From: Alphaproteobacteria bacterium
GTDB taxonomy: Bacteria > Pseudomonadota > Alphaproteobacteria > MPNO01 > UBA2964
Assembly: GCA_012103315.1 (NCBI GenBank)
Contig: WLWZ01000001.1
Coordinates: 744,001 to 808,000, forward strand
Length of the DNA stretch: 64,000 bases
Direction of reading: 5' to 3'
The first letter of the stretch is position 1, and the number at the start of each line of letters is the position of its first letter. Shown here piece after piece: positions 33,899 through 63,077 of this stretch. The position numbers were made by a program, and so were the translations under genes. The notes beneath the pieces were generated by a model. The model was not told where the DNA came from and made no database searches. It worked only from the letters and a program-made list of their open reading frames with translations.

Positions 33899-34402
33899 TT
33901 ATTTTTTACGAAAACTATCGAGAGCAACTACCGTCCCGTCGTCCGATGCTAATACCGTTGCTGAGTTCTCGTCGTCTGTATCAGCGGTTGTTTCGATCGT
34001 TTCCGCTTCATCGTCTTCGGTCGTCAGTTGCGCAAGACCGGCGCCCTCTTCTTGACCGAACTGCAACCCAAACTTTACCGATGGATCAACAAAGGCGGTC
34101 ACCGCATCGTAAGGGACAAATAGCCGCTCCCGTTTACCGCCAAAGCTTAATGTAACAGCAAATGATTCATCGGTGACATCCAAATCCCAGAACTGGTGCT
34201 CAAGAACGATCGTCATTTCTTCCGGATATTGCACGCCAAGAACCGGAGAAATGTCGACCCCTGCCTTCCGTGTTTCGAAGGTGATATAGAAATTGTGGTC
34301 GCTTGGCAGCCCTTGATCACGCGCGATCTCAAGGGCGTCGCGTAGGACATTGCGCATCGCGCGGTCTACAAGCTTGGCATAGTCGATTATTTCGTCAGTC
34401 AT
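33899..34402 (-). CDS. sspB: SspB-family ClpXP adaptor (alphaproteobacterial type)
   Basis: HNFYITFETRKAGVDISPVLGVQYPEEMTIVLEHQFWDL; RERLFVPYDAVTAFVDPSVKFGLQF; acidic linker and C-terminal ALDSFRKK. Confidence 0.9.
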   Translation of the reverse strand: MTDEIIDYAKLVDRAMRNVLRDALEIARDQGLPSDHNFYITFETRKAGVDISPVLGVQYPEEMTIVLEHQFWDLDVTDESFAVTLSFGGKRERLFVPYDAVTAFVDPSVKFGLQFGQEEGAGLAQLTTEDDEAETIETTADTDDENSATVLASDDGTVVALDSFRKK

Positions 34403-34449
34403 GATGTGTGCAGTTTTACGAGATTTACCCTTGGCACCGCAAGGGTGCA

Positions 34450-34769
34450 GAGACAGACGTCGATATAAGCGTATTAGTATAAGTGGGGGGTATTCTGTTA
34501 CTAGGAACCCCCCGAAACCCTATCCAATTACGCAGCTAGTGCGAAATCTTGAGATGCAACATTATCGTTTGCATTTATAAATTAGCCCGATAACGGCGGT
34601 ACCATGCCGGACGAAAAACCAGTCTTTACACGCGCGTCGATCCTATTTCGCCCCCAAAGACATTCGAGAAAACCCCGAAAGAAAGAAATTGGTGGAGGCG
34701 CCGGGTACCGCCCCCGGGTCCGCATCGCTTATTTCACAAGTCGTTTATCGTCATAGCTGGTTGCCCAGC
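34450..34769 (-). ncRNA. ssrA: Two-piece (circularly permuted) tmRNA; outer ends approximate
   Basis: Minus strand: acceptor piece ending CGCCTCCACCA at 34690; about 34-nt spacer; coding piece starting GGGGGCGAAATAGGATCGACG at 34655. Tag frame 34572-34528 reads ANDNVASQDFALAA-stop. 7-bp acceptor stem with G3-U70. Coding-piece 34465-34471 pairs with acceptor-piece 34726-34732 (ATAAGCG/CGCTTAT). Confidence 0.92.
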
Positions 34770-34775
34770 ACTTCC

Positions 34776-34781
34776 AATATA
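34776..34781 (-). promoter_or_regulatory. Candidate -10 element (TATATT) of ssrA
   Basis: TATATT on the minus strand about 7 nt before a GCTGG-GCAA-CCAGC hairpin that could open the transcript; weak -35 (TTTAAT) 17 bp further upstream. Confidence 0.35.
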
Positions 34782-34841
34782 GGGTGATTCTGCCCTAAAT
34801 TAAAGTTAAACAGCGTCGGCCCCAATATTTCAGAAGTCGGT

Positions 34842-35636
34842 ATGCAACAATATCTAGATCTTATGCGGCTCGTCGTGGAAGAAGGCGCTCACAAGGGTGA
34901 CCGCACCGGGACAGGCACACGCAGTGTATTTGGCCACCAAATGCGGTTTGATCTGTCCGCTGGCTTCCCGTTGGTGACCACCAAAAAATTGCATCTGCGA
35001 TCGATCATCCACGAGCTTTTGTGGTTTCTCGCGGGCGATACAAACATTAAATATCTGAATGAAAATAAGGTCTCAATTTGGGATGAGTGGGCTGATGAGA
35101 ACGGTAATCTTGGTCCTGTGTACGGTGCTCAATGGCGTTCATGGTCAACCGCTGATGGTGGCGCCGTCGACCAGATCAGCCAACTTATTCATGACATTAA
35201 GACCAACCCCGATTCCCGACGATTGATCGTAAGCGCCTGGAATGTTCTCGAAATCGAGAAAATGGCTTTGCCACCTTGCCACTGTTTGTTTCAGTTTTAT
35301 GTGGCAGATGGGAAATTGTCTTGCCAGCTCTATCAACGTAGCGCTGATATTTTCCTCGGCGTTCCTTTCAATATCGCCTCTTATGCGCTCTTCACTTTAA
35401 TGATTGCGCAAGCGACCGGCCTTAAACCCGGTCACTTCGTCCATACTTTTGGCGATGCCCATCTTTATAATAATCATCTGGATCAGGCGGCGGAGCAGTT
35501 GGCACGAGAAACGAGGCCGTTGCCTGAAATGCTTCTGAACCCGGACGTGACGGATATCTTTAAGTTCTCTTATGAAGATTTTGTCCTAGATGGTTACAAT
35601 CCTCATCCACATATCTCAGCGCCTGTGGCAGTCTGA
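34842..35636 (+). CDS. thyA: Thymidylate synthase
   Basis: [61 protein letters not shown]. Confidence 0.98.

Positions 35637-63001: not shown

Positions 63002-63077
<76 letters not shown>

Follow-up and report, generated by a model that had tools for sequence, protein, structure and literature searches.

Permuted tmRNA genes of Alphaproteobacteria

The two-piece tmRNA of Alphaproteobacteria was reportedly first shown in Caulobacter. In the permuted form of the gene, the mature tmRNA consists of two pieces (PMC11915505), and two Rfam models describe it, alpha_tmRNA (RF01849) and the general permuted model tmRNA_permuted (RF04321). The locus described here lies in a 64,000-nucleotide stretch of DNA from a probably uncultured alphaproteobacterium, and this whole stretch is called the window below. 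The locus shares with RF01849 the gene order, the tRNA-like domain, the acceptor stem with its G3-U70 pair, the encoded CCA, a tag of the form ANDN...AA and a terminal pseudoknot with ACAGAA. It differs from the RF01849 consensus in a shorter stretch after the stop codon and in a 14-residue tag with a VASQ insertion, whereas the comparison with RF04321 (positions 34752-34528, a full-length match at 161.7 bits) brings out no material difference.

We conclude, with a probability of roughly 0.98, that this is a genuine circularly permuted tmRNA gene and the single ssrA of the organism. As a member of a well-known family it is ordinary; the expansion of the tag and the linkage to sspB are modest additions, and the picture of trans-translation is unchanged by these observations.

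The gene in the sspB-thyA gap

The original prediction had placed a permuted tmRNA on the minus strand in a 440-bp gap between sspB and thyA. The gap is there, with thyA (34842-35636) as its other flank, and measures 439 bp (34403-34841). Both Rfam models and ARAGORN agree on the gene inside it. The features of the locus are as follows.

34482..34808, minus strand: permuted tmRNA gene (ssrA), given as the extent of the RF01849 match; ARAGORN places it at 34437-34786
34690..34786, minus strand: acceptor piece, first in the gene, ending CGCCTCC-A-CCA; 5' end uncertain (34786-34808); from direct reading, Rfam and ARAGORN
34656..34689, minus strand: intervening stretch of 34 nt, which tRNA-processing enzymes should remove; length and ends from the sequence
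34482..34655, minus strand: coding piece, with GGGGGCG at its 5' end; 3' end uncertain (34437-34482); from direct reading, Rfam and ARAGORN
34528..34572, minus strand: tag reading frame, ANDNVASQDFALAA followed by TAA; from direct reading and ARAGORN
33899..34402, minus strand: sspB, encoding the adaptor that brings tagged proteins to ClpXP; next gene downstream of the tmRNA, in the same orientation (Pfam SspB, E 4e-43)

The RF01849 match found by the Rfam covariance-model search runs from 34808 to 34482 and covers the model from end to end (1-355 of 355) at 259.3 bits (E 3.1e-74), against a cut-off of 50 bits. This is the opposite of the missing covariance-model match that had been named beforehand as grounds for giving the prediction up. 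On direct reading, the acceptor 3' end ...CGCCTCCACCA lies at 34690, upstream of the GGGGGCG at 34655, which is the permuted order. These two ends are exactly where they had been predicted, and so is the tag frame, read from 34572 to 34528 as ANDNVASQDFALAA*. The frame is open, with a resume alanine codon and a hydrophobic ALAA end, and ARAGORN returns the same tag, which is absent from the program's own tag list. The acceptor stem GGGGGCG/CGCCTCC pairs at all seven positions, G3-U70 included, as had been claimed.

The prediction was less accurate about extent. Its span of 34450-34769 picks out the right locus but stops short on the 5' side, where the gene extends to about 34786-34808. It had also called the tmRNA unlisted; the gene is indeed absent from the ORF track, which means only that ORF tracks omit RNA genes. 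For annotation it nevertheless matters that a gap seemingly without genes contains a core gene of ribosome rescue. The interpretation itself is supported as right, but it is textbook: nearly every alphaproteobacterium has a permuted tmRNA gene.

Elsewhere in the window, a tRNA-Lys (CTT) lies on the plus strand at 63002-63077 (Rfam, ARAGORN).

Conservation across relatives

RF01849 scores above its cut-off in 12 of the family's 13 genomes, in all 21 of the order and in 272 of 289 of the class. ARAGORN finds a tmRNA in 64 of the loci retrieved, a few of which represent one place reached by two routes, and all 64 carry the permuted form. The acceptor stem has seven of seven pairs, again with G3-U70, in 62 of the 64, and compensatory changes are seen among its inner pairs (GGGGGCG/CGCCTCC, GGGGCCG/CGGCTCC, GGGGACG/CGTCTCC and GGGGTCG/CGACTCC). 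The other two loci have five of seven pairs, probably due to the script having picked the wrong CCA. The stretch between the two pieces is 17-62 nt long in relatives, compared with 34 nt here, and tags across the class have 10-14 residues.

Expansion of the tag in four genomes

An alignment of twelve tmRNAs of the family locates a 12-nt insertion in the tag, coding for VASQ, in the genome of the window and in three others (L018, L019 and L020), all of one genus. The tag of this four-genome group is ANDNVASQD(F/H/Y)ALAA. The other aligned members of the genus carry ANDNDLALAA, as do two of the three other genera. Although the group has less sequence following the stop codon, a counterpart exists for every structural element. 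Other members of the genus, such as L011, L016 and L013, have the gene at the same site beside sspB, with a nearly identical tRNA-like part. They differ from this genome in the shorter tag, in the stop codon, which falls either on the 5' strand of its hairpin or at the tip, and in stem 1 of the last pseudoknot, which is CGGY/RCCG. Three helices around the tag frame are involved.

34554..34574, minus strand: resume-codon hairpin, ATGCAA/TTGCAT; covariation in relatives between the codon's third base and the base paired with it
34526..34548, minus strand: hairpin over the end of the tag; the stop codon is in its 3' strand only in the four-genome group
34485..34522, minus strand: last pseudoknot, with stem 1 TAGG/CCTA and stem 2 GGGGGG/CCCCCC

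Most of the order has GCCAA/TTGGC as the hairpin over the resume codon; L070 and L079 have GTGCGA/TCGCAC, and L083 has AAATGCA/TGCATTT. The codon is free to vary at its third base, and each time the partner base matches (A-U, C-G and G-C). Covariation at this synonymous site (34554-34574) is seen in the order and in a few other lineages, and the Rfam model leaves the region unpaired.

The hairpin over the tag end is GATTTCGCA/TGCGTAATT in the genome of the window, with a G-U pair where L018 and L019 have G-C; in L020 it is perfect, with nine pairs. The rest of the genus has GCTGCCTAA/TTAGGTAAGC, with the stop codon either in the 5' strand or in the tip; the four-genome group has it in the 3' strand. 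A 3' strand holding at least two bases of the stop codon was found in none of the sampled sequences outside that group. Stem 1 of the last pseudoknot reads CGGT/ACCG or CGGC/GCCG in relatives, and the six pairs of stem 2 are unchanged.

The tmRNA seems to have re-formed around VASQ: to judge from pairing and minimum-energy folds, which are the basis for the helix replacements, the resume-codon hairpin, the tag-end hairpin and stem 1 of the last pseudoknot have all changed in sequence and would still pair. Because the derived group is four genomes only, the replacements represent few independent events. We tentatively propose, at somewhat short of even odds, that four codons were gained and three helices rebuilt, the stop codon crossing from one hairpin strand to the other, and that, taken with the covarying resume-codon hairpin, this reflects stronger selection on the structure around the tag frame than on the middle residues of the tag. 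With the relocated tag hairpin, nature has run a small experiment on where tmRNA is under constraint.

The insertion and the shift of the stop codon might have altered function, in the reading of the tag or in degradation, rather than being neutral drift. In this family, ANDN is the presumed binding site of SspB, and ClpX reads the ALAA at the C-terminus. The insertion sits between these two elements, is common to four genomes and is accompanied by the replacement of three helices, all of which would suit a functional change. However, the tag keeps both its ends, its length is variable within the class, and residue 10 drifts among F, H and Y, which would be expected if the hairpin were more important than the peptide. 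We consider a change of function improbable.

A single ssrA gene

The alpha_tmRNA model has one match in the whole genome (4.1 Mb, 98% complete), at this locus. The canonical one-piece model RF00023 has 13 matches in the genome, none of them at the locus and all below its cut-off (best 32.8 bits, compared with 47). A canonical tmRNA elsewhere in the genome was considered and rejected, the RF00023 matches, most of them about 76-90 nt long, being taken as tRNA-like. A better ssrA elsewhere, the other outcome on which the original prediction was to be abandoned, did not turn up with either model. The genome has one copy of smpB (PF01668, 190.5 bits).

That the locus is a decayed or inactive permuted copy, with a working copy elsewhere, is scarcely credible: the stretch after the stop codon is indeed rearranged relative to the Rfam consensus and to other members of the genus, but the argument fails because the match is unique and pairing is preserved, the helices in the four genomes retaining their pairs through compensatory changes, and the tag frame is open as well.

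A simple promoter and terminator scan was uninformative. No consensus promoter turned up upstream on the tmRNA strand, a result that counts slightly against the gene, but the scan looks for sigma-70-type sites only and misses other promoter types. The coding piece, folded as a single strand and compared with shuffles, gave no signal (z -0.45), which is unsurprising because the pseudoknots and the second piece are missing from the fold, and this result carries no weight in the conclusion.

Predicted action of the two-piece tmRNA

By analogy with the known family, one precursor would be transcribed with the acceptor part first, and tRNA-processing enzymes would cut it after the CCA and before GGGGGCG. 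The resulting acceptor RNA and coding RNA would be held together by the acceptor stem and a long helix, and would be charged with alanine by way of G3-U70. The charged tmRNA would then enter stalled ribosomes with SmpB, leading to the addition of (A)ANDNVASQDFALAA. Finally, SspB, encoded just downstream, would presumably deliver the tagged protein to ClpXP.

Linkage of tmRNA and sspB

The search for solved relatives of the sspB product yielded only 2nys, 2qas and 2qaz, of which one bears the name SspB. The neighborhood was surveyed in 79 genomes spread over the class, a non-random choice in which tmRNA was known to be present and its matches were among the higher-scoring ones. In 61 of them, sspB follows the tmRNA on the same strand at a distance of no more than 600 nt (median 110 nt); widening the limit to 10 kb raises the number to 72. 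It is elsewhere or on another contig in six, and was not found in one (G236), despite a strong tmRNA match there. Over most of the class, the linkage pairs the maker of the tag with its reader. No statement of an ssrA-sspB linkage was found in the open-access literature, and novelty is not claimed. The arrangement makes a tmRNA-sspB co-transcript plausible.

Between the tmRNA and sspB, at 34427-34450, are two overlapping and mutually exclusive hairpins, GCACC/GGTGC and ACCCTTG/CAAGGGT, whose inner ACC-CTTGC-GGT is kept in most of the genus. These hairpins may serve sspB as a leader or in processing.
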